This document shows, in pieces, positions 2 to 16,765 of a stretch of 26,607 bases of DNA; position 1 is the first letter of the stretch; every line of letters begins with the position of its first letter. The stretch spans positions 1 through 26,607 of the IMG/VR virus record IMGVR_UViG_3300044732_001740; one strand, given 5' to 3'. The position numbers and the translations under genes were made by a program. The notes beneath the pieces are model-generated. The model was not told where the DNA came from. It saw only the letters and a list, made by a program, of their open reading frames with translations, and did no database searches. Source of the stretch: a virus.

Positions 2-2761
2 TCAAAAAGAATTAAATCAATATTAACTGATTTATTTTATAATCAATTAGATATTAATACAAATTTACCCATGTGGACAAGAAATACTTGTAAATATGGT
101 GATAATTTTGTCTTTTTGAAATTAGATCCCGAAAAGGGAATTGTTGGTTGTTTCCAATTACCAAATATTGAAATTGAGCGTATTGAAAGGGGTATGGTTA
201 AACGTCCCGGTGGGACACCTGATAGTAATCCCGAAATTAAACAAATGAAGTTTTCTTGGAAACAAAAAGATTTGGAATTTAATACATGGGAAGTTGCACA
301 TTTTAGGTTGTTGGGCGATGATAGAAAACTACCTTACGGTACCTCAATTTTGGAAAAAGCAAGAAGAATCTGGAAACAATTAATTCTTGCAGAAGATGCG
401 ATGTTGATATATAGAACAACAAGAGCGCCTGAAAGAAGGGTGTTTAAAGTCTTTGTTGGAAACATGGATGATAAAGATGTTGAAGCATATGTACAACGAT
501 TTGCGAATAAATTTAAGCGTGACCAAGTTGCGGACCCAAAAACAGGTAACGTTGACCTAAGATATAATCAAATGGCGGTTGACCAAGATTATTTTGTTCC
601 TGTTAGAGATGTTACAGCACCAAATCCGATTGATACATTACCGGGAGCTTGTATTGCGTTAGATACAAGAATTCCCCTTCTTGATGGTAGAGTTTTAACC
701 TTGCAAGAAATAATCAATGAGTGGGATAGTGGTAATAGAAACCTTTGGGTTTATTCATGTGATCCAAATAGTGGTTCTGTTCATCCGGGTATGGTTACTT
801 GGGCGGGTATCACTAGAAAAAATGCTGAAGTTCTTAAGATAACATTAGATAATGGTGAGGAAATTGTTACAACTCCTGACCATAAATTTGTTCATAGAAC
901 TAGAGGATTTGTTGAAGCGAAAGATTTGGTTGTTAATGATAGTTTGATGCCTTTTTATCGTAAAAATGATTTTATTTTAAATAAAAAATATGCAAAAAAA
1001 TATGAAAAAATTTGGAATAACGATACTCAGAAATGGGAATTCACCCATAGAATGGTTTCGTCATTCTTTAGCGATAAATCACCATTATCCGTATTCACTT
1101 TTGACTCCGAATTTTTAAACTCGGAAAAAAATACAATACATCATGTTGATAATAATCGATTTAATAATAACCCAACTAATTTAGTTTATATGAACTCTAA
1201 GGACCATTATTTATATCACAGATATGAATTGTGGTCTACTCCAGAAAAAAAAGAAAAAAATAAAATTAAAATTTCAAATGGTATTAAAAATTATTTAAAT
1301 AATCTTTCTTCAGATGAATTACAAAAAAGACATGAAAGAATTAATAATCCGGTTTCGAAAGCTAAAACAACTAAAAAGTTATTGGAATGGAATAAAAATG
1401 ATGAAAATTTAAAAAATAAAGGTAAAAAAATTTCAAAAGCTTATACAGAAGAAAGAAAAAATAAGATAAAACAATTAAATTTAATAAAATGGTTGGACGA
1501 AGATTATCAAAATAAAGTTTTTTCTAAAAAACAAACAATAACATTTGATGATTACATATTTAATTCATTTGTTAGTGAATTTGAAAAGACTTTACGTGCT
1601 GATTTGGCGTTAAAGAACTTAAATAGTTCTTTTGAATTCATATCACATTTTAAAGAAATTAATGAGGAAATTAGAAGTTCGTTAACAAACTTAAATGAAT
1701 TCACGCAAAACCATGTAGATAAAATGGTTAAACAACGAGGGTTTAAAAATTTTACTGAATGGAAACATTTTGAGTGTAAAAAGAGAGGATTTAAAAATAT
1801 TCGTCAATGGAAGTATAATCTTGAGAGGGAAGTTTATTTTAACCATAAAATAACTAAGATTGAATGGTTATCAGAACGTATTGATACTGGAACTATTACT
1901 GTAGATGGTAATGAAATTTATTCAAAATCTCACACTTTTGCTATTGAAAACGGTATTTTCATTAAAAATAGTAACCTTTCCGAAATTGCAGATATAGAAT
2001 ACATACAGAAAAAACTTTTAACCGCTTTAAGGATACCAAAAGCGTTCCTTGGGTTTGAAGAAGTTGTTGCCGATGGTAAAAATCTTGCGTTACAAGATAT
2101 TCGTTTTGCGAGAACAATTAATAGAATACAAAAAAGCATGTTAGCTGAATTAAATAAACTCGCAATTATACATTTGTTTATTTTAGGTTTTGAAGATGAG
2201 TTATCTAACTTCACATTAGGTTTAACAAATCCCTCGACACAGGCAGATTTATTAAAAGTTGATGTCTTTAAAGAAAAAATCATAACTTATAAAGATGCTG
2301 TTCAAACAATTGATGGTATTGCACCGGTTTCACAATCTTGGGCGAAAAAGCATATTCTTGGATTCTCAGACGATGAAATTAAGTTAGACATTCAACAACA
2401 AAGAATTGAAAGAGCGGTTGGGAAAGAGCTTGAAAACACCGCAACCATTATCACAAAAACCGGTATTTTTAATAGTGTTGATTCAATTTATGGTCAAAAA
2501 GTAGGTGCCACCCCCGGAACTCCGGCACAAGAACCTAGTTCTGAAATGACAATGCCTGAAACTGATATTTCAGCACCTGAGACATCAACGCCTGAAGCAC
2601 CACCCATTGAAGCGCCAGCAACAGTACCTGAAGCTAAAACAGATAAAATAAACATTTTAGTGGAGGGTGGTTTATTAAAAGAAGATGAGGAAATTGATTT
2701 AATCAAAGGTAGATCTCAATTGGGTGAAATTGAGGAACAATTGAATAAATTACTAAATTGA
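2..2761 (+). CDS. gp20: Portal vertex protein, T4 gp20-like, 5' truncated by window edge, interrupted by an intein
   Basis: Portal protein of the T4 gp20 family, which forms the dodecameric ring through which DNA enters the head. The frame is open from base 2 with no stop, and the residues before the ATG at 71 (KRIKSILTDLFYNQLDINTN) read as portal sequence, so the true start lies left of the window and the Met at 71 is internal. The conserved portal motif DTLPG(A) is cut at base 650 and resumes at 1970 as SNLSEIADIEYIQKKLLTAL, so the mature extein reads DTLPGA-SNLSEI, close to the gp20 signature as I remember it. About 479 extein residues are visible; T4 gp20 has 524. The C-terminus carries a Pro/Glu/Thr-rich tail (about 2500-2640) before a last helix. 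It heads the head-gene cassette, 28 bases before the next gene. Confidence 0.88.
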   Translation, partial: SKRIKSILTDLFYNQLDINTNLPMWTRNTCKYGDNFVFLKLDPEKGIVGCFQLPNIEIERIERGMVKRPGGTPDSNPEIKQMKFSWKQKDLEFNTWEVAHFRLLGDDRKLPYGTSILEKARRIWKQLILAEDAMLIYRTTRAPERRVFKVFVGNMDDKDVEAYVQRFANKFKRDQVADPKTGNVDLRYNQMAVDQDYFVPVRDVTAPNPIDTLPGACIALDTRIPLLDGRVLTLQEIINEWDSGNRNLWVYSCDPNSGSVHPGMVTWAGITRKNAEVLKITLDNGEEIVTTPDHKFVHRTRGFVEAKDLVVNDSLMPFYRKNDFILNKKYAKKYEKIWNNDTQKWEFTHRMVSSFFSDKSPLSVFTFDSEFLNSEKNTIHHVDNNRFNNNPTNLVYMNSKDHYLYHRYELWSTPEKKEKNKIKISNGIKNYLNNLSSDELQKRHERINNPVSKAKTTKKLLEWNKNDENLKNKGKKISKAYTEERKNKIKQLNLIKWLDEDYQNKVFSKKQTITFDDYIFNSFVSEFEKTLRADLALKNLNSSFEFISHFKEINEEIRSSLTNLNEFTQNHVDKMVKQRGFKNFTEWKHFECKKRGFKNIRQWKYNLEREVYFNHKITKIEWLSERIDTGTITVDGNEIYSKSHTFAIENGIFIKNSNLSEIADIEYIQKKLLTALRIPKAFLGFEEVVADGKNLALQDIRFARTINRIQKSMLAELNKLAIIHLFILGFEDELSNFTLGLTNPSTQADLLKVDVFKEKIITYKDAVQTIDGIAPVSQSWAKKHILGFSDDEIKLDIQQQRIERAVGKELENTATIITKTGIFNSVDSIYGQKVGATPGTPAQEPSSEMTMPETDISAPETSTPEAPPIEAPATVPEAKTDKINILVEGGLLKEDEEIDLIKGRSQLGEIEEQLNKLLN
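650..1969 (+). mobile_element. In-frame intein with HNH homing endonuclease inside the portal gene (440 aa)
   Basis: The first intein residue is Cys (tgt at 650) in GA|CIALDTRIPLLDG. A block-B-like motif TPDHKF is encoded at 872-889 with its conserved His. The HNH nuclease core is encoded at about 1139-1219: IHHVDNNRF, then PTNLVYM, then KDHYLYH, with His/Asn/His in order. A long Lys-rich linker follows. The C-terminal Hint part ends SHTFAIENGIFIKN|S, with terminal Asn at 1967-1969 and Ser as +1 extein residue. The penultimate residue is Lys, not the usual His. It splices by autocatalysis (known for Hint domains); the HNH part probably drives homing into intein-less portal genes. Boundaries are exact to the codon if the Cys and Asn assignments hold. 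The reading frame is intact throughout, so it looks functional. Confidence 0.88.
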
Positions 2762-4040: not shown

Positions 4041-4763
4041 ATGAAAATTTTAGGAGCAAATGATATTGAACAAAGAGGTATTCTTATTGAAATGGATGCT
4101 GGTTATATTTCACCAAGCGATGAGCGTAACTTAGCAATCATTAAAGAATCTAAAAATTTATTGGATTATTCAAAACCGTTTGAATTTTATGCGGTATTAC
4201 AAAAATACGGTGTACCAAATAGAAACGGTAGAATTTATCCTGAGAATATTCTAAAAAGAGAATCTGAAAATTATATTAAGTTAATAAAGCAAGGAAAGGC
4301 TATGAGTGAATTAAATCACCCAGAATCTTCCCTTATTGATTTGGATAGAGTTTCACATCTTATTACAGATATGTGGTGGGATGCACATATTCTAATGGGT
4401 AAGTTAAAATTGTTAACATCTCCGGGATTTCATGAAAGAGGAATTGTTTCAACTAAAGCGGATATTGCAGCTAATTTATTAAGACATGGTGCAACCCTTG
4501 GTATTTCTTCAAGAGGTGTTGGTTCGTTAGCCAAGAAGGGCGAACAAAATGAGGTGCAATCAGATTTTGAACTCATTTGTTTTGATTTGGTTTCATCACC
4601 GTCAACACCGGGAGCATATCTTTTCAGCGATATAAATGATAAAAACAAATTTGATGAAAATATCGAAGAGGAGAGGAAATTAAGACAACCAAATGTTTCT
4701 GATAAAAAAGAAAACAAATCGCTTGACTTAATGAAAAGATTATCCGATTATTTGGGTAAATAA
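4041..4763 (+). CDS. gp21: Prohead core protease, T4 gp21-like
   Basis: Serine protease of the T4 gp21 (herpesvirus-assemblin-like) fold that digests the scaffold and trims head proteins during maturation. The N-terminal half has the family pattern FYAVLQKYGVPNRNGRIYP (about residues 49-67). The probable catalytic His lies in MSELNHPESS (about residues 90-99) and the catalytic Ser in LGISSRGVGS (about residues 153-162), in the usual order. Length 240 aa against 212 in T4. The C-terminal tail is charged. Gene order portal, two small genes, protease, scaffold, capsid matches T4. An A/T palindrome (AGATA-aaaaa-TATCT, 4026-4040) touches the start codon. Its cleavage rule in T4, [IL]-x-Glu, matches candidate sites in the capsid protein and several accessory proteins in this window. 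Confidence 0.88.
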   Translation: MKILGANDIEQRGILIEMDAGYISPSDERNLAIIKESKNLLDYSKPFEFYAVLQKYGVPNRNGRIYPENILKRESENYIKLIKQGKAMSELNHPESSLIDLDRVSHLITDMWWDAHILMGKLKLLTSPGFHERGIVSTKADIAANLLRHGATLGISSRGVGSLAKKGEQNEVQSDFELICFDLVSSPSTPGAYLFSDINDKNKFDENIEEERKLRQPNVSDKKENKSLDLMKRLSDYLGK

Positions 4764-5100: not shown

Positions 5101-6645
5101 ATGTCAGAGAAAAAATCATTAGTAGAAGATACCTTACTCCAAATGAGAAATTTAGAGGAAGCTATCCAAGAAAATGCAAAAGGAATACTTGCTTCAACAA
5201 TGAAGGAAGAAATCAGCGATTTAGTAAAAGAGTCTTTAAGTGAGGCTGACGAAGATGAGGATGACGTTCCAAATATGGGAATGGATTCTGATTCCGATAA
5301 TGAAGAAAGCGAAGAATCGTCCGATTTAGAAATGGACATGGAAGACGATGAAGATTTAAGCGACGAATCTGAAGAGATGGGCGCTGAAATGAGTCTTGAC
5401 ATGGACGTAGAAGATGAAGTCCCTATGGACTTGACCGGAGCATCAACAGAAGAGCTTTTAAAGGTTTTCAAAGCTATGGGTGATGAAGATGGTATCATTG
5501 TTAAAAAAGACAATGATATGATTCACCTAAAGGATGACGCTGAAGATGTTGAGTACCTAATTGACTTAGGTGAAAACATTGAAGAACGAGCTTTTGATTT
5601 AGGTAGCGATGAAGATGAGGATTTTGAAAGCGAAGATGATGAAGAAAAAATTCAGAAAATCAGAGCGGAATTAGGTCTTAATGATGAACTTGAATTTGAC
5701 GAGTTTGAGGATCAAATGCCAATGCGCAGAGGTCACAAAGTTAGAAAAATGAGAGGTGAGGAAGAAATGACCGAAGAATCCGATGAAACCGAAACCGAAA
5801 AGCAAGCTGATATTGATGCTATGTTAGATGACATTTTTAACGAATCAGAAGAATCTGATGAGGTTGAGGAGGTTGTTTACGAAATCGAACTTGATGAAGA
5901 GGACGATACAGACGAAGATACAATGGAGGAAGCTGAAGAAACAGATGAGGAAATGAGTGAGACCTACGATTTGGAGGAAGTATTCAAACCAAAAATGTTC
6001 AAAGGAAGGAATCCAGAAAATAATTCAAATAGAGGTCCGAAAAAGATGTCAATGAAAAAGCCTACCGGAAAAATGTTTGGTATGACACCAAAGATGGGTA
6101 ACGCTACAAAAACATCTAAATCTGATGTAAAGAAAATTGAGACCAAGGAAGCTGCAAGAACTTTAGGTATGGGTAGCAAGTTTAGAAAGGGTGGATTACC
6201 GAAACCCAGAACTGCTCCAAGACATCTTGAAGAAGATTTTGATTTTGAAGAAATTAATGCTGAATTAACTTCATTAAGAGAAAAAAATGAAGAATATAGA
6301 AAGGCGTTAAATATCTTTAGAAACAAACTTAACGAGGTTGCCGTATTTAATTCAAATCTTGCTTACGCGACCAGACTTTTCACTGAACATTCAACTTCAA
6401 AACAGGAAAAAATTAACATCCTAAGAAGATTTGATGGTGTTGAGTCAATTAAGGAATCAAAGAACCTTTACACAACAATAAAAGAGGATTTAACATCCAA
6501 GAGTTCTACACCGATAACCGAGTCGATTGAGTCAAAAATTGAAAAGGCTCCTTCTAGCGGTTCTGCGGTTAATTTGATTGAGTCTAAGACTTATGAGAAT
6601 CCCCAATTCTTGCGCATGAAAGACCTCATGAATAAAATAAAATAA
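5101..6645 (+). CDS. gp22: Prohead scaffold / core protein, T4 gp22-like (514 aa)
   Basis: Major scaffold around which the capsid is built and which the prohead protease later digests. Residues 1-45 are helical. About 46-310 are extremely acidic with runs of Asp, Glu and Ser. About 310-385 are basic and rich in Lys, Met, Gly and Pro. The C-terminal part (about 390-475) is a coiled coil with the gp22-like pattern NSNLAYATRLFTEHSTSKQE, followed by KINILRRFDGV. Several [IL]-x-Glu sites (for example PITESIES) fit digestion by the protease. It is about twice the length of T4 gp22 (269 aa), mainly through the acidic part. It starts a unit with the capsid gene: the gap is 22 bases without promoter or terminator. 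Confidence 0.82.
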   Translation: MSEKKSLVEDTLLQMRNLEEAIQENAKGILASTMKEEISDLVKESLSEADEDEDDVPNMGMDSDSDNEESEESSDLEMDMEDDEDLSDESEEMGAEMSLDMDVEDEVPMDLTGASTEELLKVFKAMGDEDGIIVKKDNDMIHLKDDAEDVEYLIDLGENIEERAFDLGSDEDEDFESEDDEEKIQKIRAELGLNDELEFDEFEDQMPMRRGHKVRKMRGEEEMTEESDETETEKQADIDAMLDDIFNESEESDEVEEVVYEIELDEEDDTDEDTMEEAEETDEEMSETYDLEEVFKPKMFKGRNPENNSNRGPKKMSMKKPTGKMFGMTPKMGNATKTSKSDVKKIETKEAARTLGMGSKFRKGGLPKPRTAPRHLEEDFDFEEINAELTSLREKNEEYRKALNIFRNKLNEVAVFNSNLAYATRLFTEHSTSKQEKINILRRFDGVESIKESKNLYTTIKEDLTSKSSTPITESIESKIEKAPSSGSAVNLIESKTYENPQFLRMKDLMNKIK

Positions 6646-6667: not shown

Positions 6668-8527
6668 ATGGGTGCATTATTAGATAGCGGTCTTGTTGGT
6701 AACATTGGTCTTAAGCATCTTAAGGTTATCAAGGAAGACACAATTAACAAGTGGGACAAACTAGGATTCTTAGAGGGTCTTAGAGGTCACTTAAAGGAAA
6801 ACATGGCTCAGTTGTATGAAAACCAAGCTTCACAACTTATTAACGAAGCGGCTTCTACATCTGACAGCGGTTCATTTGAAACCGTAGTTTTCCCGATTAT
6901 CAGAAGAGTTTTCTCGAAACTCTTGGCGAACGAAATCGTATCAGTTCAAGCCATGAACCTCCCTATCGGTAAGTTATTCTACTTCATTCCGAGAATTCAG
7001 GGTTATACCGGTGCTACTGCTGACGCTGCTATCCCCGGTGGTTATTCAGATTCAGGTCAGCACTACGCTCCTGTTGGTTCTCCCGGTAACTATCCCGGCG
7101 ATCCTAACACTGGATATCCCCCTGCTTCAAACGCTTATGGAAAGAGTCTTTATGACCTCTTCTATGAGGGTAACGAACCCGGATTGAACCCTGCTGGTCT
7201 TTTCGACTACTCAAAGGGTAGATTCCTTATCTTAACTGCTGCAACACAAACTGTCGCATGGAGCGGTTCTGACCTTGTTCCGACTGCTTACGCTTCAGGC
7301 GAATACAGAAAGATTTTGGTTGCTCTTTCAGGTTTCTCAAGTGCTGGTGCTGGTAAGCTCATCGGTCCTGATGGTCAGGAAATGGATACCGAATCATTCT
7401 TGTCAGACCTTACTCTTTACACAAACACTTCGGCTGTTGCTACTCAATTAGGTACAGCAGTTGTTACACCTCTTCTTTACAGAGTTGTAACTCAGAAGTA
7501 TGGTAAGGGTATTGTTCAATACGGTTCACAAACTCAAGCTCCGTTTAACAGAACCACAACAGGTGGTAATGGTGGTTATTTTGATGACATCTGCTCACCG
7601 ACTGGTATCATCTATCTCGAAGTTGATGCTCAAATTCCTGTTTGTATTTCGTGTGACAATGCTAACACAATTGACGGTTATTCTGGTGCAACTCTTACCG
7701 GTGCAGTTTGGTCAGGTTCATCTGGAAGCGGTCAGATTAATGCGGCTTGGAAGCGTTACGAAGAACTCGAATTCGAAGACAAGATTGGTGAAGTCTCTTT
7801 CGACCTTCAGTCAGTAACTGTATCAGTAACTGAAAGAAAGTTAAGAGCACAATGGTCTCCTGAACTCGCTCAAGACGTAGCTGCTTTCCACAACATCGAT
7901 GCTGAAGCAGAATTAACCGCTCTATTGTCAGAGCAAGTTGCCGCTGAAATCGACAGAGAAATCTTAAGAGATTTGAGAAAAGGCGCTGCTTGGACATTAA
8001 GATGGGATTACAATGGTTGGAAGAGATTAGGTACCGCTGCTGTTCCTTATACCCAAAAGGACTGGAACCAGACCCTCATCACCGCTATCAACCAAATCTC
8101 AGCACAAATCCACAAGTCAACCTTAAGAGGTGGCGCTAACTGGATTGTTGTATCCTCTGAAATCTCAGCTATCTTCGATGACCTCGAATACTTCCACGTT
8201 TCAAATGCTGCTCCTGAACAGGATCAGTACAACATGGGTATTGAGAAAGTCGGTACTTTAGCAGGTAGATATCAGGTTTACAGAGACCCTTACTTCCCAC
8301 CCAACACAGTATTGCTTGGTCACAAGGGAACATCTCTATTGGACACTGGATACGTCTACGCTCCGTATGTACCTCTCCAGTTAACTCCGACAATGTACAA
8401 TCCGTTCAACTTTACCCCGATTAAGGGTATCATGACCCGTTACGCCAAAAAAATGGTAAATAACAGGTTCTATGGTAGAATTATTGTTGACGGTGTTCGT
8501 TCATTTGACTTAAGAGAATTGAGATAA
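6668..8527 (+). CDS. gp23: Major capsid protein, T4 gp23-like (619 aa)
   Basis: Main subunit of the head shell (HK97 fold, gp23 family). The N-terminus (residues 1-60) is a helical propeptide ending in SQLINE, followed by AASTSDSGSFETVVFP. The cut after Glu60 corresponds to the T4 gp23 cut after Glu65 (FLTE|A). The family pattern FPIIRRVFSKLLANEIVSVQ, then MNLPIGKLFYF, follows. It is about 100 residues longer than T4 gp23; the Gly/Ser/Pro-rich stretch at about 115-370 may hold the insertion domain. The C-terminal part (KGIMTRYAKKMVNNRFYG) also fits the family. Codon use is unlike its neighbours, with many C-ending codons and higher GC, as in very highly expressed genes. Its mRNA ends at a strong terminator. 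Confidence 0.92.
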   Translation: MGALLDSGLVGNIGLKHLKVIKEDTINKWDKLGFLEGLRGHLKENMAQLYENQASQLINEAASTSDSGSFETVVFPIIRRVFSKLLANEIVSVQAMNLPIGKLFYFIPRIQGYTGATADAAIPGGYSDSGQHYAPVGSPGNYPGDPNTGYPPASNAYGKSLYDLFYEGNEPGLNPAGLFDYSKGRFLILTAATQTVAWSGSDLVPTAYASGEYRKILVALSGFSSAGAGKLIGPDGQEMDTESFLSDLTLYTNTSAVATQLGTAVVTPLLYRVVTQKYGKGIVQYGSQTQAPFNRTTTGGNGGYFDDICSPTGIIYLEVDAQIPVCISCDNANTIDGYSGATLTGAVWSGSSGSGQINAAWKRYEELEFEDKIGEVSFDLQSVTVSVTERKLRAQWSPELAQDVAAFHNIDAEAELTALLSEQVAAEIDREILRDLRKGAAWTLRWDYNGWKRLGTAAVPYTQKDWNQTLITAINQISAQIHKSTLRGGANWIVVSSEISAIFDDLEYFHVSNAAPEQDQYNMGIEKVGTLAGRYQVYRDPYFPPNTVLLGHKGTSLLDTGYVYAPYVPLQLTPTMYNPFNFTPIKGIMTRYAKKMVNNRFYGRIIVDGVRSFDLRELR

Positions 8528-8649: not shown

Positions 8650-10077
8650 ATGAAAAAAATAGAACCAACAAAGGAGCAAATTAATGAAATGTTAAGACTA
8701 TATAATGTTGGATTTTTAGGTTCCCCCGCAATCTCAGAGAGAATGGGTTTATCAAAACCAACAGTTATTAGAATTTTAAAAGAAAATGGCGCTAAGTTTG
8801 GTCCATCCGGTAGAAAATTTAAAGGTGGTAAAATAGTTTCAGATAAGAAATATCGTGAAAGTGAAAAAAATAAATTAAGAAAAAAAAATAATTCAGCACG
8901 TTGGTCAAAAGAAAATAAAGAACATTTAAAAAAATATCACAAAGAATGGGTTGAAAACAACATAGATAAAGTAAGAACTAAAAAAGCTAAGTATGAAAGA
9001 GAAAAAAAAGCAAAAGACCCCAAATACAAAATTTCCAGCGTATTTAGAACCGCATTATATACCGCTCTAAAAGAAAAAGACATTCTTAAAGATAAAAAAT
9101 GTTTTGAACTATTGGGTTACACAAAAAATGATTTGATAAAACACATAAATAAGTTATTGGAACCCCGAATGACCTTAGAAAATTACGGTGAATGGCACAT
9201 AGACCATATTATACCAATATCCAAATTTAATTATACATCAACAGATGACGAGCAATTTAAAGAATGTTGGTCATTAAGTAATTTAAGACCAATGTGGGGT
9301 TCTGACAATATAAGTAAAAGTAATAAAATTATTGCCCATCAATACAAAATACGACAACAAAAGCAAACCGAACAACAAAATAATATTGATTTTGATATCT
9401 CAAAAGTTTCATTAAATAATTGTGAAGTTCGCCAAATTACTAGACAAGTGTGCGAACCAATAATAAATGAGTATGAGTGGTTAGGTTATTTACCGAAATA
9501 CACAAATCTTTATTTTGGGATTTATTTTAAAGTTGGTGGTGATGAGAAATTAGGTGGTGTGGTTGCGTACCAACCAGAGTATGGTGAGAATATGGGTATT
9601 TGGGATAAATATGGTTATACCGGTAAAATAATACAATTAAGTCGGGGCGTTTGTCTTTGGTGGACACCAAAAAATACCGCATCATATTTTATAACCAGAA
9701 CAAATAAATGGTTAAAAGAAAATATGCGTTATAAAGTGGTTACCGCAACGGTGGATTCTTCAGCGGGTGAAATTGGAACAATATATCAATCAATGAATTG
9801 GTATTATGTTGGAACCTTTGGTGGTAATTTAACGAGCACTGGAAAGGAAAGAATACGTTATGGTTATATTATCAACGGTAAAACATATAATCAAAGACAT
9901 ATAAGAAGTATGATTGGTACCGCAAAAAAGGAAAATGTGTTGTCACACTTTCCTGATGTTAAAATGGTTAATTTGGGAAGAAAGAAAAGATATTTTATAT
10001 TCTTGGGAAATAAGAAAGAAAATGAGCAATTATTATGTTCAATAAAAAATATCATAAAAGAATATCCAAAACGATAA
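8650..10077 (+). CDS. Free-standing HNH endonuclease fused to a Mom/GNAT-like domain (475 aa)
   Basis: Three parts are visible. Residues about 5-45 form a helix-turn-helix (AISERMGLSKPTVIRILKEN). About 60-125 are a very basic linker. About 130-230 are an HNH nuclease of the H-N-N type: WHIDHIIPISKF with His186, LSNLRPMW with Asn211, then DNISKSNK. Residues about 258-440 form a separate domain with EWLGYLPKYTNLYFGIYF and LGGVVAYQPEYG, then VDSSAGEIGTIYQSMNW (Asp369). This pattern recalls the Mom-family DNA-modification proteins (GNAT fold) as I remember them. The HNH part suggests a homing endonuclease beside the capsid gene. The C-terminal part may be a modification enzyme or a captured domain. 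HNH is fairly sure; the Mom assignment is tentative. Confidence 0.75.
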   Translation: MKKIEPTKEQINEMLRLYNVGFLGSPAISERMGLSKPTVIRILKENGAKFGPSGRKFKGGKIVSDKKYRESEKNKLRKKNNSARWSKENKEHLKKYHKEWVENNIDKVRTKKAKYEREKKAKDPKYKISSVFRTALYTALKEKDILKDKKCFELLGYTKNDLIKHINKLLEPRMTLENYGEWHIDHIIPISKFNYTSTDDEQFKECWSLSNLRPMWGSDNISKSNKIIAHQYKIRQQKQTEQQNNIDFDISKVSLNNCEVRQITRQVCEPIINEYEWLGYLPKYTNLYFGIYFKVGGDEKLGGVVAYQPEYGENMGIWDKYGYTGKIIQLSRGVCLWWTPKNTASYFITRTNKWLKENMRYKVVTATVDSSAGEIGTIYQSMNWYYVGTFGGNLTSTGKERIRYGYIINGKTYNQRHIRSMIGTAKKENVLSHFPDVKMVNLGRKKRYFIFLGNKKENEQLLCSIKNIIKEYPKR

Positions 10078-10106: not shown

Positions 10107-11183
10107 ATGGGTAAATTTTTAATAACTGAAGATGAAAAAGCGAGAATATTAAGTTTATATTCTGCGTTTATTAATGAGCAAGAATTGATAAGAATTTATT
10201 CTAAAAAAGAGGATAAAAATCCTTCCAACGAGAAAAGGGCGGCTATTGAACGTTATTTTGAAAATAGAGGTATTGTGAAAAAATTAATAAAAGGTGAAGA
10301 CCAACTTGCTATTTGGAATGAAATGGTTGCTGATCCAAAACAAAAACCGTTTATTGCTGACATTGTTAGACATATTGAGAGCCATATTAACCTAATCGAC
10401 GGTCTTTTATTAAGAAAAGGAACCGAAGAAATAAAAAAAGAAAGTCCTAATGAACAACCCGGATTAACTGTTAGTCTTGATGAAAATGCAAAAACTAATT
10501 TTTATTTTAGAGATAATGAGTGGGAACTAACCGATGAAGGTAAAGCGGATATTCAAAATACAATTTTTGCCCAAGTTGATGCAAATATTAAAGAAAATGC
10601 GGGCTTTAACAAATGTGTTGATTCATTGATAATTAATAGTAGTGCTAGCAGATTTAGAAATACTGGTGATGCTGAAAAATATTCATTTGCTCAATTATCA
10701 AAATTAAGAAATGATTCGGTTAGAGACTTTATTATGCAAAGATTAAATGAAATGGGAATAACATTATGGTGTTCAACTCAAAATAATATTCAACAAAACA
10801 TAAATGGTGATAATGGTGACGGAACAAGCGGTCCAAATCCACCAAAACCATTACCTTTTATCCCAAAAGGTCAATCTTCAATGAAACCGTCTTCAACCGA
10901 TGAAACAAAACGAAATGAATTCGGTGAACCACTTGAAACAAAAGTAGAATATGATGTATATAAATACACAAAACCATCATTAACAATTGCATTTGCAATG
11001 GAAAAATCAATAGATAAACCCCCTGCGGAGGGAGTTAATATAGCATATGACGTTGAATTCTTTAAAGGTAAAACAAAAACAGGAAAGATAAGTGGTAGAA
11101 AAAATGCAAAAATTACAAAATTTGGAATACCAAAAACTAAGCTATTTGCTAAAATGATTGAATGTCCTGTATTTAATAAATAA
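10107..11183 (+). CDS. Unknown protein with capsid-targeting-like leader and a possible OmpA-like segment (358 aa)
   Basis: The start ATG at 10107 is chosen because it follows a promoter-like box and gives an N-terminus MGKFLITEDEKARILSLYSA followed by FINE|QE, a variant of the leader shared by four other genes here, with an [IL]xE site at its end. The middle (about residues 170-225) contains NSSASRFRNTG and then FAQLSKLRNDSVRDFIMQRL, which recalls the OmpA-like peptidoglycan-binding pattern (Gly-x-Ala-Ser ... Leu-Ser-x-x-Arg) in a degenerate form. A Pro/Gly/Asn-rich linker (about 230-270) and a beta-rich, Lys-rich C-terminus follow. There is no classical signal peptide. If packaged, it could be an internal or injected protein; that is inference. 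Confidence 0.65.
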   Translation: MGKFLITEDEKARILSLYSAFINEQELIRIYSKKEDKNPSNEKRAAIERYFENRGIVKKLIKGEDQLAIWNEMVADPKQKPFIADIVRHIESHINLIDGLLLRKGTEEIKKESPNEQPGLTVSLDENAKTNFYFRDNEWELTDEGKADIQNTIFAQVDANIKENAGFNKCVDSLIINSSASRFRNTGDAEKYSFAQLSKLRNDSVRDFIMQRLNEMGITLWCSTQNNIQQNINGDNGDGTSGPNPPKPLPFIPKGQSSMKPSSTDETKRNEFGEPLETKVEYDVYKYTKPSLTIAFAMEKSIDKPPAEGVNIAYDVEFFKGKTKTGKISGRKNAKITKFGIPKTKLFAKMIECPVFNK

Positions 11184-11681
11184 TTATTTATATCCCCATA
11201 TTTCACTATACACACCAACGCCTACCAACCATCCGTGGATGTTGTATTTAAATTTAAATGCGTAATATTTAAATTTTTTGTTGACCATAATTTTTCTATG
11301 ACCCGGTGATTTCATAAAGCTATCAAAAAATTCTTGTGCTTCTTGTTTTGCAGTTTTATCGCCTATAATATTTCCCATGATTGCAATTTCTGCATAATCA
11401 CCCGTATGATATGGAAATAAGCTAAAAATTCTATCCCCAACTGTTCTATATTTTGGAACATCCAATTGATGATGTGTAATCATGTTTTCTTCATGATTTG
11501 TAAGATAATTCAAATGAATTGTAACAACGGTATCAAAACATTCACCATATTTAATCTTATGATGAATTTTTTTGCAATATTCCTTATAAATCGCATTAAA
11601 TTCCCTTTCAATATCGTTAACTTCTTGGGAATAAGCGGGATAAACGGTAAAAAATGACAATAAGATAAGTAATTTTTTCAT
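11184..11681 (-). CDS. Secreted CAP/SCP-like (YkwD-type) domain protein (165 aa)
   Basis: An N-terminal signal peptide is clear: MKK, a hydrophobic core LLILLSFFTVYP, and a probable cut at AYS|QE, typical of Bacteroidota. The rest has the CAP-superfamily pattern: an early helix ending in HLNYLTNHEENM, then HHQLDVPKYRTVGDRI, and the diagnostic SPGHRKIM followed by a strand pair ending GVGVY. CAP proteins act outside the cytoplasm in many organisms; a biochemical function here is not evident. The gene is convergent with the preceding plus-strand gene (no gap) and has its own host-type promoter, so it looks like a moron-type accessory gene expressed independently of the virion genes, perhaps altering the host envelope. 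Confidence 0.7.
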   Translation of the reverse strand: MKKLLILLSFFTVYPAYSQEVNDIEREFNAIYKEYCKKIHHKIKYGECFDTVVTIHLNYLTNHEENMITHHQLDVPKYRTVGDRIFSLFPYHTGDYAEIAIMGNIIGDKTAKQEAQEFFDSFMKSPGHRKIMVNKKFKYYAFKFKYNIHGWLVGVGVYSEIWGYK

Positions 11682-11699
11682 TTTGTCTTAATTTGACAA

Positions 11700-11730
11700 C
11701 AAAGTTAAGAATAATTTTCAATTTACCAAA
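11700..11730 (-). promoter_or_regulatory. Bacteroidota-type promoter (TTTG - 19 bp - TAACTTTG)
   Basis: On the minus strand TTTG (11730-11727) is followed after 19 bases by TAACTTTG (11707-11700), matching the known Bacteroidota primary-sigma consensus TTTG-N(19-21)-TAnnTTTG. The ATG at 11681 is 18 bases downstream. Confidence 0.65.
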
Positions 11731-11965
11731 TCAATTTCTTCCAATTTTCGATAAATTCCGTTCTTTTTTCTTTATTAAGACCAATTTCTCTCAAATCAAT
11801 CTCAATTTTTTCAATTAATTTTGTTTTTTGCTCAACAATATTATCAATTCCCCCACCAAATGAAACAACCTTTCCAAATTTGGTGACATTTGTTAAAACT
11901 TCATAATATTCTTGTGAAGTTAATCCGGTTAAATGAAAATGTGCTTGAAATATTTGGTCACTCAT
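11723..11965 (-). CDS. Small protein of unknown function (80 aa)
   Basis: Not recognised. Soluble, with the Gly-rich turn VVSFGGGIDNIVEQ in the middle and a charged helical C-terminus (KIEIDLREIGLNKEKRTEFI). No signal peptide, membrane segment or metal site. The start overlaps the end of the upstream gene by eight bases, so the two form a translationally coupled pair. The product may work with its partner, but nothing shows how. Confidence 0.6.
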   Translation of the reverse strand: MSDQIFQAHFHLTGLTSQEYYEVLTNVTKFGKVVSFGGGIDNIVEQKTKLIEKIEIDLREIGLNKEKRTEFIENWKKLIW

Positions 11966-12170
11966 GGGTTATTATTTGTCTTAATGCTTTTGAAATTACC
12001 TCGCTTTCTTCCAATGAGAATGCGCCTCTATTGTGTGCCGCTTTTATTGCTTGATTTATACAGTAAAATGCTTGTTCTTTTGTCATTGAGGTAGAAAACG
12101 TTTCCAAATCACTATCTGAATAGTAATTTATTGTATTAAATAAAGTTCCTATTGGTGTTTTTTCTTCCAT
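11958..12170 (-). CDS. Small helical protein of unknown function (70 aa)
   Basis: Soluble, acidic protein. The pattern MTKEQAFYCINQAIKAAHNR followed by GAFSLEESEVISKALR looks like a conserved small helical protein that I believe recurs in Bacteroidota phages; no function is known to me. It is the first gene of a two-gene minus-strand unit. Upstream, on the minus strand, TATCTTTA (12185-12178) is one base off the TAnnTTTG box, without a clear TTTG partner. The longer shared intergenic space also holds the plus-strand box for the next gene. Confidence 0.62.
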   Translation of the reverse strand: MEEKTPIGTLFNTINYYSDSDLETFSTSMTKEQAFYCINQAIKAAHNRGAFSLEESEVISKALRQIITHE

Positions 12171-12207
12171 TTTTTATTAAAGATAAGAAAAATTTAAACA
12201 GCATCAA

Positions 12208-12217
12208 GATATTTATT
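12208..12217 (+). promoter_or_regulatory. Candidate late promoter element GATATTTATT
   Basis: It lies in a divergent intergenic region, 13 bases before the ATG at 12231. It is preceded by AA as at 18418 and matches the other boxes in the window. Confidence 0.5.
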
Positions 12218-12230
12218 GTTAAAATCATTT

Positions 12231-13445
12231 ATGAAAATTCCAAATGACATATTTTTTCGTTTTTTAGATTTAAAATTTGAGGATTATACACTAGTTAAAT
12301 CAACATGCTCAATTTCTGGTGATTATGGTTTTGTTATACCAGCTTGGGCGATGTATGCAATCGAATCAGGCAGTTACGATAATTTAAGTGAGGAAGAAAT
12401 ATCTAGCCTCGATGAATTTTTAGATGATTTGGTAAAAACTTATGGTAATGCTAATTTAACTTTTAGTGACGAACCTTATTTTGATAGAAGTAATGATATT
12501 GATAATCTTGCTGGTGATGTATATCTTGCTGGTTTGCACCCAAGTAAGGTTAATACTTTTATCGTCGATTTAGCTAGCAATAAATTAATAATGAAACAAG
12601 AATTTGACGAAAATTATATATTTTTTAACGATATTATTTATGATATATACAAAATTTTTAATTTATCCGATTATTATCTAGTTAGAGCAATACTTGATAG
12701 GTGGATAGAAAAAAGGTTTAATATTACGCAGGAAGATACTGGAGCGTATAATTTTTCAAAATTAAATTACCGTGATGATTTGATTCCCTGCATAATGCGC
12801 AAAGCAATCAAAACCATTGATTTAACCGATATTGCAAATCAGGAAAAAATTCCCTTAAATGAAAATTCAACATATGGTGAATTTAATGGTCCGATTTCTA
12901 TTGGATTAGTTAAATGGAGAAAAGACCAATTAAAACCCTTCACCGAGTTTTCAACTCACCCAATGAATAATGACAGCAAAAACAAAAAACTCAAAAACAA
13001 CATAAAACGAGTGCTGGGTATGTGGGAAAAAAATTCAAAGGGGGAGTATCACATTCCAACACATCCGGTGCATTCAATTAATGAAGATTTGGATGTCTGG
13101 TTTGGTAAAAAAAAGAAACCAAAAGGTAGTAAACAACCACAAGGTCCGTGGGTTAATATTTGCAAAAAGGATAAGAACGGTAAACACCCCCCTTGTGGAA
13201 GAAGTGAAGCCAAATCAACCGCTTATCCAAAATGTCGTGGTTATGCCGCAGCAAGAAGTATGTCTACTGAAGAAAAAAGAAGAGCTTGTTCTCAAAAAAG
13301 ACGAGCGGAGAAAAAAGAACCAAAGGTTGGTAAGGGAAATAAACCCACTATGGTTTCACATAAGAAAAAAACAAATGAGGAACAGATTAAACGATTGGTG
13401 GATTTAATTGTTTTAGGAAAGGGACTCAAGAATCTTATCCAATGA
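12231..13445 (+). CDS. Unknown protein with Cys/Arg-rich basic C-terminal domain (404 aa)
   Basis: The ATG at 12231 is preferred to an upstream TTG because a promoter-like box overlaps the latter. The N-terminal part (1-75) is acidic and contains DYGFVIPAWAMYAIESG and LSEEEISSLDEFL, a pattern seen in small Bacteroidota proteins of unknown role. The middle is helical. The C-terminal part (about 270-390) is strongly basic and contains GPWVNICKKDKNGKHPPCGR, then TAYPKCRG and RRACSQKRRAEKK. Four Cys residues with many Lys/Arg suggest a zinc- or nucleic-acid-binding module; similar CGR...YPKC modules occur in other phage virion-associated proteins as I recall. It converges with and overlaps the next minus-strand gene by 33 bases. 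Confidence 0.65.
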   Translation: MKIPNDIFFRFLDLKFEDYTLVKSTCSISGDYGFVIPAWAMYAIESGSYDNLSEEEISSLDEFLDDLVKTYGNANLTFSDEPYFDRSNDIDNLAGDVYLAGLHPSKVNTFIVDLASNKLIMKQEFDENYIFFNDIIYDIYKIFNLSDYYLVRAILDRWIEKRFNITQEDTGAYNFSKLNYRDDLIPCIMRKAIKTIDLTDIANQEKIPLNENSTYGEFNGPISIGLVKWRKDQLKPFTEFSTHPMNNDSKNKKLKNNIKRVLGMWEKNSKGEYHIPTHPVHSINEDLDVWFGKKKKPKGSKQPQGPWVNICKKDKNGKHPPCGRSEAKSTAYPKCRGYAAARSMSTEEKRRACSQKRRAEKKEPKVGKGNKPTMVSHKKKTNEEQIKRLVDLIVLGKGLKNLIQ

Positions 13446-13814
13446 GTGCCTAATGTTTGTGTTGATTTCTCTCTCCATTTTGAGTCTACGTTTCTCAACC
13501 TCTTCATTAAATTCTTTGATAATATTATCATAATCATTACCATCCATAAAAACGACATATGAATAGGTATGATTTGTGATTTTTACAACGCCTTCATGAA
13601 TAACAATAAACATTCCAAGAACATCATTTTTGATATATCTTTTTTCTGTGACCGGTGTTAACAAAAGTACGGTACCTTCTTTGTGAATTAATTTTTGACA
13701 AATCTGAAAGCAACGCTTTTCATGTTGTTGTTTTTTTGTTAACGCTCTATTGTCAAATTTTTTAAGAAAAATATATTGCTTTTGAAAAAAGCGTTTGATT
13801 TTGTGGGTGAGCAT
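13413..13814 (-). CDS. Unknown protein (133 aa) expressed from a host-type promoter
   Basis: The start at 13814 (MLTHKIKRFF) is chosen because a Bacteroidota-type promoter lies at 13838-13869; an ATG further upstream would overlap that promoter. The basic N-terminal helix is followed by a beta-rich core (VLLLTPVTEKRYIKN, then MFIVIHEGVVKITNHTYSYV) and a charged C-terminal helix. No known domain is recognised. Its 3' end overlaps the convergent plus-strand gene by 33 bases. Its own early-type promoter suggests a role in takeover of the host rather than in the virion, which is inference. Confidence 0.62.
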   Translation of the reverse strand: MLTHKIKRFFQKQYIFLKKFDNRALTKKQQHEKRCFQICQKLIHKEGTVLLLTPVTEKRYIKNDVLGMFIVIHEGVVKITNHTYSYVVFMDGNDYDNIIKEFNEEVEKRRLKMEREINTNIRHSLDKILESLS

Positions 13815-13837
13815 TTTATGTGTTTTTGTTTCTTTTG

Positions 13838-13869
13838 CAAAGATAATGACAAAGTTTGACATGTGCAAA
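13838..13869 (-). promoter_or_regulatory. Bacteroidota-type promoter (TTTG - 20 bp - TATCTTTG)
   Basis: On the minus strand TTTG (13869-13866), 20 bases, TATCTTTG (13845-13838), matching TTTG-N(19-21)-TAnnTTTG. It points to the gene starting at 13814 and lies back to back with the late-type box at 13879-13890 on the other strand. Confidence 0.65.
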
Positions 13870-13878
13870 CAAAGTTTT

Positions 13879-13890
13879 GATATATTTATT
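13879..13890 (+). promoter_or_regulatory. Candidate late promoter element GATATATTTATT close to a start codon
   Basis: Same sequence as the box at 5073, but here only three bases separate it from the ATG at 13894. If it is a promoter of the T4 late type, the transcript would be leaderless or start inside the gene; otherwise it serves another role. Confidence 0.4.
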
Positions 13891-13893
13891 GAT

Positions 13894-15417
13894 ATGGTAA
13901 AAAAAGATATTGTTATAACAGAATCGCAATTAAATCATTTGGTCAATTCCGTTAAGGTTATTTTGACCGAAGCTGATAAAAGGGATGTTATCGTTAAAAT
14001 CGGTTATTCAAAAGAATGGGCGGATGAGTTTCATAATTTGAGCGACAAATATTCGGTATGGATTGCGGATTCTTTCTTAAAAAAAAGAATGTCTGATAGT
14101 GGCTGGAGTAGAGAAGAAACTTTAGAGAAAATAAATAAAAAATCACCCGAAACAACTTATACTTGGTTTAATGGAATCCAAGGAACATATCAATACATTC
14201 TAGATTGGTTAAGAAGTCCAAGAAGAGAACAAATTGACTTAAAAACTCTTACCTATGATGATGCATTTGATAAGTCGCGTGAATGGCATGATTCATTAAA
14301 GGTGGGCGAAAAAAGAAAATATGAGGAAACGGGTAAGATAATTATTGACTATAGAAATTCAAATGGTGTTGGTTATTATTGGGCTGATCTTGGGACATCG
14401 TATTGTAGCGAAGAACAAAGAAGAATGGGACATTGCGGTAGGGCGGGACAAGGAAATACATTAATATCATTAAGAAATATAAATGAGTTTGGTGAAGGCC
14501 AAAGCTTTATTACTATGGCTTATAGCAAAAATGGTGTCGTTTATGACTTTAAAGCATCTGGAAATCAGAAACCCTCATCAAAGTATCACAAATATATTAT
14601 TGATATTTTAACTCAAGACAAGTATCCAATTATTGAATTATCAAATTCTGGATATCAACCGGAAACAAACTTTAAATTAAAGGATTTAACGCCTGAGCAA
14701 CAAGAATTTGTTTTTTCAAAAAATGAAGCATTAAAATATAACATTGAAGATAAATTAGCGCACCCATATATTATTGAAGCTATTTTAAACGGTAAATTAA
14801 ATTTTTCAAAGTATTCAAAATCACATCAAATTGATTTGCTCAAATCTTCAAACAACAATCCAAAGTTAATGGAAATGTTTAAAGATAATATATCGCATTT
14901 TAATCAACTGCTGCTTGATAGGAGTGCTGAGATTATTTTTATAATAAAAAACTTCTCTGACGTATTTAAAGAAATTTTAATTAATTACATCAATAATGGT
15001 GATTATGGACAATTTAAACGTGTTTTAATAGTAATTAGTTATTTATTGACAAATAACAAAATAAATTTAAATGAAGTGTTGTGTGAGGAATTAGAAAGGG
15101 GGTTTAAGAAATTTAAAAATAAAGAAATGGATATTATTAGTACCAAAGAAATTAGTAAAGCTGCTTTAGTTTGCGCTAAAAATTATAAATTAACTGATAA
15201 ATATGTATACGTTTCAAATCCCGATAAATTCAAACAAATGATTGTTATTACAGACCCAAACAATAAGAGGTTTGGTGTAATCAATCAAAAGGGTGGTGTA
15301 GTTATTCCCGCTGAATATGTAACATTAAGCTTGGCTAAAAATGACACATATGTGGGGAGAGCATCAGATGGTGAAATACGAATATTTGATAAAGACGGAA
15401 ATATTATTAATACCTAA
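13894..15417 (+). CDS. Modular protein: capsid-targeting-like leader, PcfJ-like motif, WG-repeat-like C-terminus (507 aa)
   Basis: The ATG at 13894 is chosen because the leader MVKKDIVITESQLNHLV follows it directly, as in three neighbouring genes. The leader ends VILTE|ADKR, a gp21-type site. Residues about 120-255 hold a Trp/Tyr-rich region, then SYCSEEQRRMGHCGRAG (Cys171, His180, Cys181), TLISLRN and GVVYDFKASGNQKP. This order of a His-Cys-Gly/Val motif, a Ser-Leu-Arg strand and a Lys-Gly-Asn turn recalls PcfJ-like phage and plasmid proteins of unknown function. The middle is helical. The last 60 residues (RFGVINQKGGVVIPAEY, then IRIFDKDGNII) look like WG/KWG beta repeats. No signal peptide. 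It overlaps the convergent next gene by 11 bases. Confidence 0.65.
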   Translation: MVKKDIVITESQLNHLVNSVKVILTEADKRDVIVKIGYSKEWADEFHNLSDKYSVWIADSFLKKRMSDSGWSREETLEKINKKSPETTYTWFNGIQGTYQYILDWLRSPRREQIDLKTLTYDDAFDKSREWHDSLKVGEKRKYEETGKIIIDYRNSNGVGYYWADLGTSYCSEEQRRMGHCGRAGQGNTLISLRNINEFGEGQSFITMAYSKNGVVYDFKASGNQKPSSKYHKYIIDILTQDKYPIIELSNSGYQPETNFKLKDLTPEQQEFVFSKNEALKYNIEDKLAHPYIIEAILNGKLNFSKYSKSHQIDLLKSSNNNPKLMEMFKDNISHFNQLLLDRSAEIIFIIKNFSDVFKEILINYINNGDYGQFKRVLIVISYLLTNNKINLNEVLCEELERGFKKFKNKEMDIISTKEISKAALVCAKNYKLTDKYVYVSNPDKFKQMIVITDPNNKRFGVINQKGGVVIPAEYVTLSLAKNDTYVGRASDGEIRIFDKDGNIINT

Positions 15418-15874
15418 AAATTGGAAAATTATCATATTTTTGTATTAATTCTTCATTATAATTTAAGGGTGTATCAACAATCCAAATAAGACCATTGGTA
15501 ATTTTAAGACTTTTTGGTAAACTTTTTATATTTGTACTTCTTAAATCTAAATGATTGTTAAGATTAAGGTTATTAGGTAAAGTTTTTAAATTTTTGCAAC
15601 CGCGTAACCATAAATAACCCCCCACGTAAAGATTATCGGGAAGGGATGTTACTGGGGTTTCATCCAAATCCAAACCACCATCAACAACAATCTTTTCATA
15701 AAACTTATTATGGTATTTTGCAAATTTTTCAGAATCCCCATCAAACGCCTTAAATAATCTAAATTTAAAATCTTCAGCATCTGTATACCAAACATCTTCT
15801 TCTTCTTGCTCAAGAAGAACTTGCCTTATCATGTCATAAAGGTCTGATTCTGTTATTTTGATTTTCTTTACCAT
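15407..15874 (-). CDS. Leucine-rich-repeat protein with capsid-targeting-like leader (155 aa)
   Basis: The start at 15874 places the leader MVKKIKITESDLYDMIRQ, then VLLE|QEEED, at the N-terminus; upstream ATGs would overlap the preceding gene. After an acidic stretch, residues about 70-145 are three to four leucine-rich repeats of about 20 residues: TPVTSLPDNLYVGGYLWL, then CKNLKTLPNNLNLNNHLDL, then TNIKSLPKSLKITNGL. LRR proteins bind protein partners; the partner is unknown. It is the last of three minus-strand genes sharing the same leader, starting five bases after the upstream stop codon. Confidence 0.72.
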   Translation of the reverse strand: MVKKIKITESDLYDMIRQVLLEQEEEDVWYTDAEDFKFRLFKAFDGDSEKFAKYHNKFYEKIVVDGGLDLDETPVTSLPDNLYVGGYLWLRGCKNLKTLPNNLNLNNHLDLRSTNIKSLPKSLKITNGLIWIVDTPLNYNEELIQKYDNFPIFRY

Positions 15875-15878
15875 AACG

Positions 15879-16310
15879 TTATCTTGCAATAACATCACCA
15901 TCCGATGTTACCATAATATCATCATTAAATTGAAATGAACCATTCATTCCTTTTATGGTCCAATTGTTATCTTTTTGATAGATACTAACGCCTCTACAAC
16001 CTAAGAATTGATTTAATCTATCCTTTGTTGTTCTAGACCACCACCCCTTTGTTTTTAATTTCATAATATCGGTGGGGTCGATTTCAATAATGTAAGTACC
16101 GTGTAATCTAATTCCTAAGACATTAGGTTCTAAACGCTCTAAAAATGTGTTGTTACCGATTTTTTTACTTTCTTTTTTACCCAAAAACTCAGATAGACTT
16201 TCATAATTCGCATTTGAGCATGTCAAATTAGCCATTTCTGTTATTACTCTTTTTGTTGTGTTAACAAGAATTTGAAGCTGTGATTCGGTTATTAAAATTT
16301 CTTTTTTCAT
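15879..16310 (-). CDS. Unknown protein with capsid-targeting-like leader (143 aa)
   Basis: N-terminus MKKEILITESQLQILV, then RVITE|MANL, matches the leader of its neighbours and ends in an [IL]xE site. The body reads FLGKKESKKIGNNTFLERL, then VLGIRLHGTYIIEIDP, then GWWSRTTKDRLNQFLGC and GVSIYQKDNNWTI. I recall close relatives of this body (HGT..., GGW.T.TTK.R.N..L) as a stand-alone small protein in cyanophages and others, of unknown function, where the leader is absent. That would make this a leader-plus-domain fusion. Confidence 0.68.
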   Translation of the reverse strand: MKKEILITESQLQILVNTTKRVITEMANLTCSNANYESLSEFLGKKESKKIGNNTFLERLEPNVLGIRLHGTYIIEIDPTDIMKLKTKGWWSRTTKDRLNQFLGCRGVSIYQKDNNWTIKGMNGSFQFNDDIMVTSDGDVIAR

Positions 16311-16327
16311 CTTATTAATGTTATTTA

Positions 16328-16765
16328 TTATTTATTTTTCCAGCTACCACCTTGCTTTTTATACCATTTTGCCGCCCATCCACTAGCATATGCTGAAGGC
16401 CATACTTTATATTTTGATTTTGCTAATGATTTGGCTCTTGACCATAGTGTTTTATTTGTTGGTTCACGTTTTGTTTCTTCATCCAATGGACCAACAGTAT
16501 GGTCACCTTCTTTTTCATTCATTAAGAAATCAAATACTTGATCCATATTTTCTGTTGCCGTGGCAATATGGTCATCCGCCCAATCATGACCATTTTGAAG
16601 GGTTTCTTCAATCATTTGCGGGTCGATTGATAATAACATATCAATTTGTCTTCGCATCTGTTTTAAATTGCTGAAAAACATGTAGTTTCCAGTTTTTTGT
16701 TCGTTAATTTTATTATTAATTAACTTAATTAATTGACTTTCTGTTAATTTAATTGTTTTTTTCAT
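16328..16765 (-). CDS. Unknown protein with capsid-targeting-like leader and a basic YPSAY-type C-terminus (145 aa)
   Basis: N-terminus MKKTIKLTESQLIKLINNKI, then NE|QKTG, is the leader in its shortest form. The middle has NGHDWADDHIATA, a motif I recall from other phage hypothetical proteins. The C-terminus (about 105-145) reads NKTLWSRAKSLAKSKYKVWP, then SAYASGWAAKWYKKQGGSWK, a short basic module often found in phage virion-associated proteins as I recall. Function unknown. First of three minus-strand genes with the same leader; the 17-base gap to the next gene and the region upstream carry AATAAATAA repeats. Confidence 0.68.
   Translation of the reverse strand: MKKTIKLTESQLIKLINNKINEQKTGNYMFFSNLKQMRRQIDMLLSIDPQMIEETLQNGHDWADDHIATATENMDQVFDFLMNEKEGDHTVGPLDEETKREPTNKTLWSRAKSLAKSKYKVWPSAYASGWAAKWYKKQGGSWKNK

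Follow-up and report, generated by a model that had tools for sequence, protein, structure and literature searches.

Interchangeable N-terminal leaders on unrelated proteins of large T4-like phages, probably capsid-targeting propeptides

In the large T4-like phages described here, whose hosts are uncultured bacteria of gut and water, hundreds of unrelated proteins carry one of a few short N-terminal tags, and the tag probably marks its protein to be packed into the head and delivered to the next host. We read these leaders as capsid-targeting propeptides like those of the T4 internal proteins, which would bind cargo to the core of the prohead and then be removed by the prohead protease, and give this reading a probability of about 0.75. 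It had been proposed from the sequence of a single phage fragment (the sequence-only reading). The predictions of that proposal that could be computed held, and our results support it, with packaging and cleavage being what we infer from the patterns described below.

The fragment, a complete 26,607-base IMG/VR record, was analysed in full and is referred to as the window. It comes from a T4-like phage and encodes a Gp20 portal with an intein, an S77 prohead protease, a protein in the scaffold position and the Gp23 capsid protein. The relevant features are as follows, a slash marking each putative cut.

4041..4763, plus strand: peptidase S77, the gp21-type prohead protease and candidate processing enzyme (PF03420, E=5.7e-22)
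5101..6645, plus strand: scaffold/core protein candidate, located between S77 and Gp23
6668..8527, plus strand: major capsid protein Gp23 (PF07068, E=9.2e-71)
10107..10178, plus strand: type II leader MGKFLITEDEKARILSLYSAFINE, putative cleavage after E24 (INE/Q), by the type II profile
12216..13445, plus strand: member of a family with a short C-terminal amphipathic helix in most members, by family comparison
13894..13971, plus strand: type I leader MVKKDIVITESQLNHLVNSVKVILTE, putative site LTE/A, on a 507-aa protein, by the seed profile
15809..15874, minus strand: type I leader MVKKIKITESDLYDMIRQVLLE, putative site LLE/Q, repeat-rich body, by the seed profile
16236..16310, minus strand: type I leader MKKEILITESQLQILVNTTKRVITE, putative site ITE/M, Kyano_Gp96 (PF23790) body, by Pfam and the seed profile
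16700..16765, minus strand: type I leader MKKTIKLTESQLIKLINNKINE, putative site INE/Q, YMFFSNL/DUF5872-like body, by the seed profile

The five tagged N-termini lie where the sequence-only reading had placed them, all with ATG starts. Against the seed profile, of which they are themselves part, the four LTES/ITES leaders reach 34-47 bits. The fifth, at 10107, had been taken for a variant of the other four and instead belongs to a second class of its own, so a single class covering all five genes was rejected. The protein family of its body (10179-11183) is also represented in contig G035; a homologue in locus L349 likewise carries a type II leader, and one in L174 has a different N-terminus. 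The names proposed for the window bodies stood only in part. Kyano_Gp96 is confirmed for the 16310 body (2.1e-9), a DUF5872 likeness of the 16765 body (6.6e-6) stays slightly below the family cut-off, and the OmpA, WG and LRR assignments fall below Pfam cut-offs.

To describe the leaders beyond the window, a profile of 25 leaders (A1) was run on the ORFs of all fetched loci. Excluding the random controls, 234 distinct matches lay at an N-terminus, 3 at a C-terminus and 2 inside a protein; there was no match in either 120 random viral loci or the loci of named relatives. The N-terminal matches are not due to chance. As they fall on 151 body clusters, the claim that the leader is a module placed at the N-terminus of unrelated proteins is upheld. 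The type I consensus is MKK-[IV]-[IV]-[RK]-LTESDL-x-R-[IL]-V-K-R-V-I-x-E. With one representative for each of the 151 clusters, column information is mostly 2-5 bits through the Glu (position 0), with two variable positions low, and then drops sharply, to 1.9 bits at +1, where Gln makes up 50%, and to at most 0.35 from +2, which agrees with the earlier statement that conservation ends at [IL]xE. Glu occupies the terminal column in 229 of the 234 leaders; its 100% frequency in the information table is by construction, because the rows without Glu (5/234) were omitted, and the apparent invariance is further inflated since the profile used for selecting leaders itself contains Glu.

Instead of the one leader class first supposed, there are at least three. 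A longer form of type I and the whole of type III turned up in relatives. The longer form, from gut and rumen phages, reads HRIVKESVNRIL-x-E, with a helix four residues longer; it has the terminal Glu in 142 of 156 cases and only 0.44 bits at +1. The residue after Glu is not part of the rule, Gln being common in freshwater phages and no preference being seen in gut and rumen ones. Type II has the consensus ITEEEKxRILxLH followed by 1-15 residues to [IL]xE, and its profile found 79 N-terminal matches and 0 in other places. In 70 of the 79 an [IL]xE falls within residues 18-40, compared with 8-15 per 73-77 elsewhere in the same proteins. Type III (MNLQENIxRIKxMMGL..E) was matched 27 times at the N-terminus and once elsewhere, with the site in 23 of the 27. 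As a sequence pattern, the hydrophobic-x-Glu end of a T4-type capsid-targeting sequence (CTS) is thus present in 229/234, 142/156 and 70/79 of the short type I, long type I and type II leaders, respectively.

All classes together comprise 475 tagged proteins in 311 body clusters, clustered at E<=1e-4 or 1e-5, so that distant homology may merge some; the loci, picked for their similarity in capsid protein or leader, do not constitute independent samples. The short shared N-terminal extension on unrelated proteins, a mark of T4-type CTS, is present. Two contigs of 322 and 304 kb have 12 and 17 genes tagged by the A1 profile, all N-terminally, and among large type I contigs type II occurs in 11/11 and type III in 8/11. 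Unsupervised pair comparison gave 176 N-terminal pairs against 24 mid-protein and 35 C-terminal ones in G035, and 303 against 27 and 39 in G023, some of these pairs being ordinary paralogues. Six body clusters combine different leader classes; in one of the six this is due to a single ORF, in locus L184, that bears type II and type I leaders in tandem. Judged from these sequences, the leader classes are interchangeable on homologous bodies. The bodies themselves are mostly without annotation.

The sites also resemble those of the head proteins. INE is the commonest type I end (43/151) and is identical to the conserved LINE/A site at about residue 60 of Gp23. The sequence-only reading had named this site, together with the S77 protease and Gp23; both genes are confirmed by the Pfam matches listed above, the site is present as claimed, and it occurs in 90 of 94 Gp23 relatives, counting only relatives with a site found by pattern. 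The earlier claim of the same tripeptide at the capsid protein's own site thus held as well. In the scaffold candidate, the N-terminal helix ends in ..EEISDLVKESLSE/A (..LVKESLSE), which resembles a leader end. The N-terminus at 2790 in the window was considered as a further cut site and rejected, as the Glu is not conserved there.

Twenty-two near-complete contigs (at least 200 kb) had been selected by leader; S77 was found in 20 of these as well as in the window, so the expectation of a gp21-like protease in leader genomes was borne out with two exceptions. Among freshwater and marine-type leader contigs S77 is present in 25/47 of at least 34 kb and 10/11 of at least 200 kb, and among gut and rumen-type contigs in 12/19 and, at 200 kb or more, in 10/11. 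The exceptions, in which S77 was not detected, are G096 (317 kb, with leaders) and G042 (200 kb), whose leader genes resemble those of the S77-bearing G035. None of 23 random contigs had a leader or S77; being mostly shorter and with neither, they mark rarity and no functional tie. The co-occurrence is weak functional evidence because the lineages that yielded the leaders are T4-like and would be expected to have S77 in any case, and it may reflect shared ancestry. Conversely, several S77-bearing T4-like phages are without the three leader classes, namely immuto, RM378, Mel-JY01 and two uncultured huge phages.

An upstream element, TA[TC]TTATA, precedes 99/221 leader genes, most often 19-24 bases before the start, as well as 12/17 scaffold genes, 16/43 protease genes and 217/1181 other ORFs. 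It is missing from capsid protein genes (0/75) and hence is not a general late signal. The window has a TATTTA element at -22 of the S77 gene and at -24 of the scaffold candidate gene. Across the whole window TAYTTATA occurs 10 times versus 6.6 expected, not clearly above chance, and its position alone is suggestive.

A terminal amphipathic helix of about 18-20 residues is indicated by the consensus hydrophobic pattern and by an AlphaFold2 model of the 16765 protein, which places a separate helix at 9-24 with moderate confidence (pLDDT 77.6, pTM 0.40). Foldseek found no match to this model at E<=0.001, and a 10107 model was left out for low confidence (pLDDT 43). We consider it unlikely that the leader is an uncut assembly or docking helix, recruiting proteins to a phage structure or condensate, with the Glu as helix end or binding face. 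Its length, amphipathic pattern and mostly N-terminal, sometimes C-terminal placement do match bacterial encapsulation peptides (PMC7221423). A few relatives of the 12216..13445 protein carry the full type I tag C-terminally (L010 and L041/L068 end KKTVRLTESDL..), and the window member ends EEQIKRLVDLIVLGKGLKNLIQ, without a site. The 2790 family also has a somewhat leader-like N-terminal helix, but there the position of the Glu is occupied by E, D, N or S, so Glu is not a requirement of such a helix as such. In the 16765 family, E22 is invariant in 33 aligned homologues while the lengths of the upstream helix and linker vary, and some members without the LTES half still keep the Glu. A conserved Glu with a variable P2 and hydrophobic P3 is the pattern of a protease rule, and the wide variation in type II spacing to [IL]xE likewise argues against a helix that is simply retained.

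It is improbable that the leaders instead target the tail or baseplate, the cell envelope or an export route, and are kept or removed by another protease. The LysM, PG_binding_1 and OmpA domains in a few bodies would fit such destinations, and three tagged genes of the window lie directly downstream of the 18362-16776 gene on the same strand. However, every leader class is without a hydrophobic signal-peptide core, and most bodies are without envelope domains, others having NUDIX, annexin or zinc-ribbon domains. That the shared stretch is a functionless 5' gene segment, promoter and start region together, spread by recombination is scarcely credible: tagged genes do frequently stand in arrays, many behind a promoter-like element, but the DNA upstream of leader genes with different bodies has 0.63 differences per base, leader codons differ more at third positions (0.44) than at first (0.27) or second (0.18), conserved Leu, Thr, Ser and Arg use four or five synonymous codons, and homologous bodies carry unrelated leader classes in the same place. 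The same contrast of upstream divergence with third-position changes led to the rejection of promoter copying along with the leader as the only cause. By their codons, the leaders are under protein-level selection.

Related arrangements exist in an isolated phage. Flavobacterium phage immuto, in full vB_FspM_immuto and with LMO8 as its host, has shared N-termini of its own with the same kind of end, MENFDLKKFLVENKLTxNSKLLKE on the four proteins gp3, gp178, gp193 and gp194 and MKKQILSEQFxRMQKLAGIITE/S on the two proteins gp42 and gp187, with 25 N-terminal pairs against 4 mid-protein and 10 C-terminal. Its protease (GLLTE/S), scaffold (QAIAE/A) and gp199 (FIAE/A) start with similar sites. With the consensus of type I (23 aa) and of type II (30 aa) as queries, tblastn found nothing in named phages; queries this short have limited sensitivity, although a 32-aa immuto leader retrieved its own records. 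A scan of bacterial genomes with the 16765 protein found no relative. With a tight type I alignment there were 3 matches in 84,980 species: two are on short contigs of one MAG that also holds an S77 gene, and the third lies near the end of a Bacteroidales contig from a MAG without detected S77. This contig, related lake phages (PMC9723584) and A-rich start regions lead us to infer Bacteroidota as hosts. In the open literature, including a full-text search for leader strings, we found no description of these tags, nor virion proteomics of leader-bearing phages.

The closest known system is that of T4. Its internal proteins have CTS propeptides of 10-19 residues, which attach to the core and are cleaved off by gp21; processing depends on residues close to the end, and in Alt both ends are processed (PMC9026906). 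The T-even ip genes were themselves discovered through their shared signal (PMC12373910). In features visible from sequence the present tags resemble the CTS of IPI-IPIII and Alt: a short N-terminal propeptide on unrelated bodies, a gp21-type x-x-Glu end and an encoded S77, and T4 also has some proteins processed at the C-terminus. They look different in sequence and are longer (~22-30 residues), and we claim no homology to the IPIII leader. The present phages also have several leader classes per genome, and about 10-30 tagged genes per large genome as against three IPs and Alt in T4. The giant phages SPN3US and phiKZ eject head proteins whose N-terminal propeptides a related prohead protease cleaves after x-x-Glu, and SPN3US gp53 and gp54 have identical N-termini (PMC5694885). 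Most of their propeptides are long, in some cases >100 residues, and the sites read A-x-E or S/A/G-x-E; a common tag across many unrelated bodies is not described there. In P1, the N-terminal 30 residues of DarB suffice for entry of a reporter into the head, but Dar N-termini are without a consensus sequence (PMC9024508). Microcompartment encapsulation peptides are amphipathic helices of 18-20 residues, N-terminal or less often C-terminal on the cargo (PMC7221423). They belong to bacterial organelles, and the likeness is one of kind only. To our knowledge, these peptides are not known to be removed at a terminal Glu.

Taken together, our results suggest the following course. Cargo would be synthesised with an N-terminal amphipathic helix, which may bind the scaffold of the prohead core. 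The capsid shell would close around the core, and the S77 protease could then cut after the conserved [IL]-x-E, freeing the cargo inside the head to leave together with the DNA. In T4, each of three internal proteins blocks a particular type IV restriction enzyme (PMC12373910), and by extrapolation the bodies described here may act in the infected cell. We give even odds to a broader view, that the leaders form a general protein-packaging code in T4-like jumbo phages of Bacteroidota-type hosts, in which unrelated leader classes use the same core and protease to load tens of proteins per virion, and the early effectors injected comprise hundreds of unknown families, many of them perhaps serving counter-defence.

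Proteins of the restriction-blocking internal type are hard to detect by homology. If the reading is true, a simple N-terminal signature would predict the injected protein repertoire of many uncultured jumbo phages and would yield some 300 candidate families at once, almost all unannotated. The interchangeable leader classes may offer a route to learning how the prohead core recognizes its cargo.

The Gp20 portal gene (window 2-2761) contains an intein (Pfam Intein_splicing, 4.4e-12) with an HNH-like part (Pfam HNH_3, 0.0024), and a further ORF looks, by eye, like a homing insertion:

Window 8650-10077: ORF whose zinc motif is HNH-like; flanked by the capsid gene and by the tagged (leader-bearing) gene at 10107

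In four leader-bearing contigs from gut/rumen (G097, G102, G094 and G103), matches to S77, the gp21-type prohead protease and candidate enzyme for leader removal, are split into separated pieces within long ORFs of 380-609 aa, as though an intein or another inserted element broke up the protease.

At many loci, GGGGTTTTT / AACCCC stretches lie 5' of the leader genes, and because of these a terminator is suggested ahead of many tagged genes. The gut-form leader, a longer type I tag, gave five internal matches in the gut/rumen loci L502, L462, L556, L515 and L463, some at about 70-155 residues into the frame. These five are possibly two tagged proteins fused, or frames with wrongly placed starts. 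The gut-form leader was also found on a bacterial contig:

L445 111-1541: gut-form leader gene and adjoining phosphoribosyltransferase-like gene, close to the end of a Bacteroidales contig

The phosphoribosyltransferase-like gene starts with LDNIIKESIDNIINE, and a repeat stretch separates the housekeeping genes from this gene pair.

Many members of the capsid-neighbouring family of window 12216-13445 have C-terminal amphipathic helices, preceded by a KPKNES-type linker. The body of the tagged gene at 16765 has a homologue in a huge phage:

L346 14740-15204 (LR756502.1, 642 kb): 16765-body homologue

Leader classes II and III had no match in this phage; the frame of the homologue starts with MENIKSFDSFNE, which is reminiscent of the T4 leader, the capsid targeting propeptide of T4 internal proteins.
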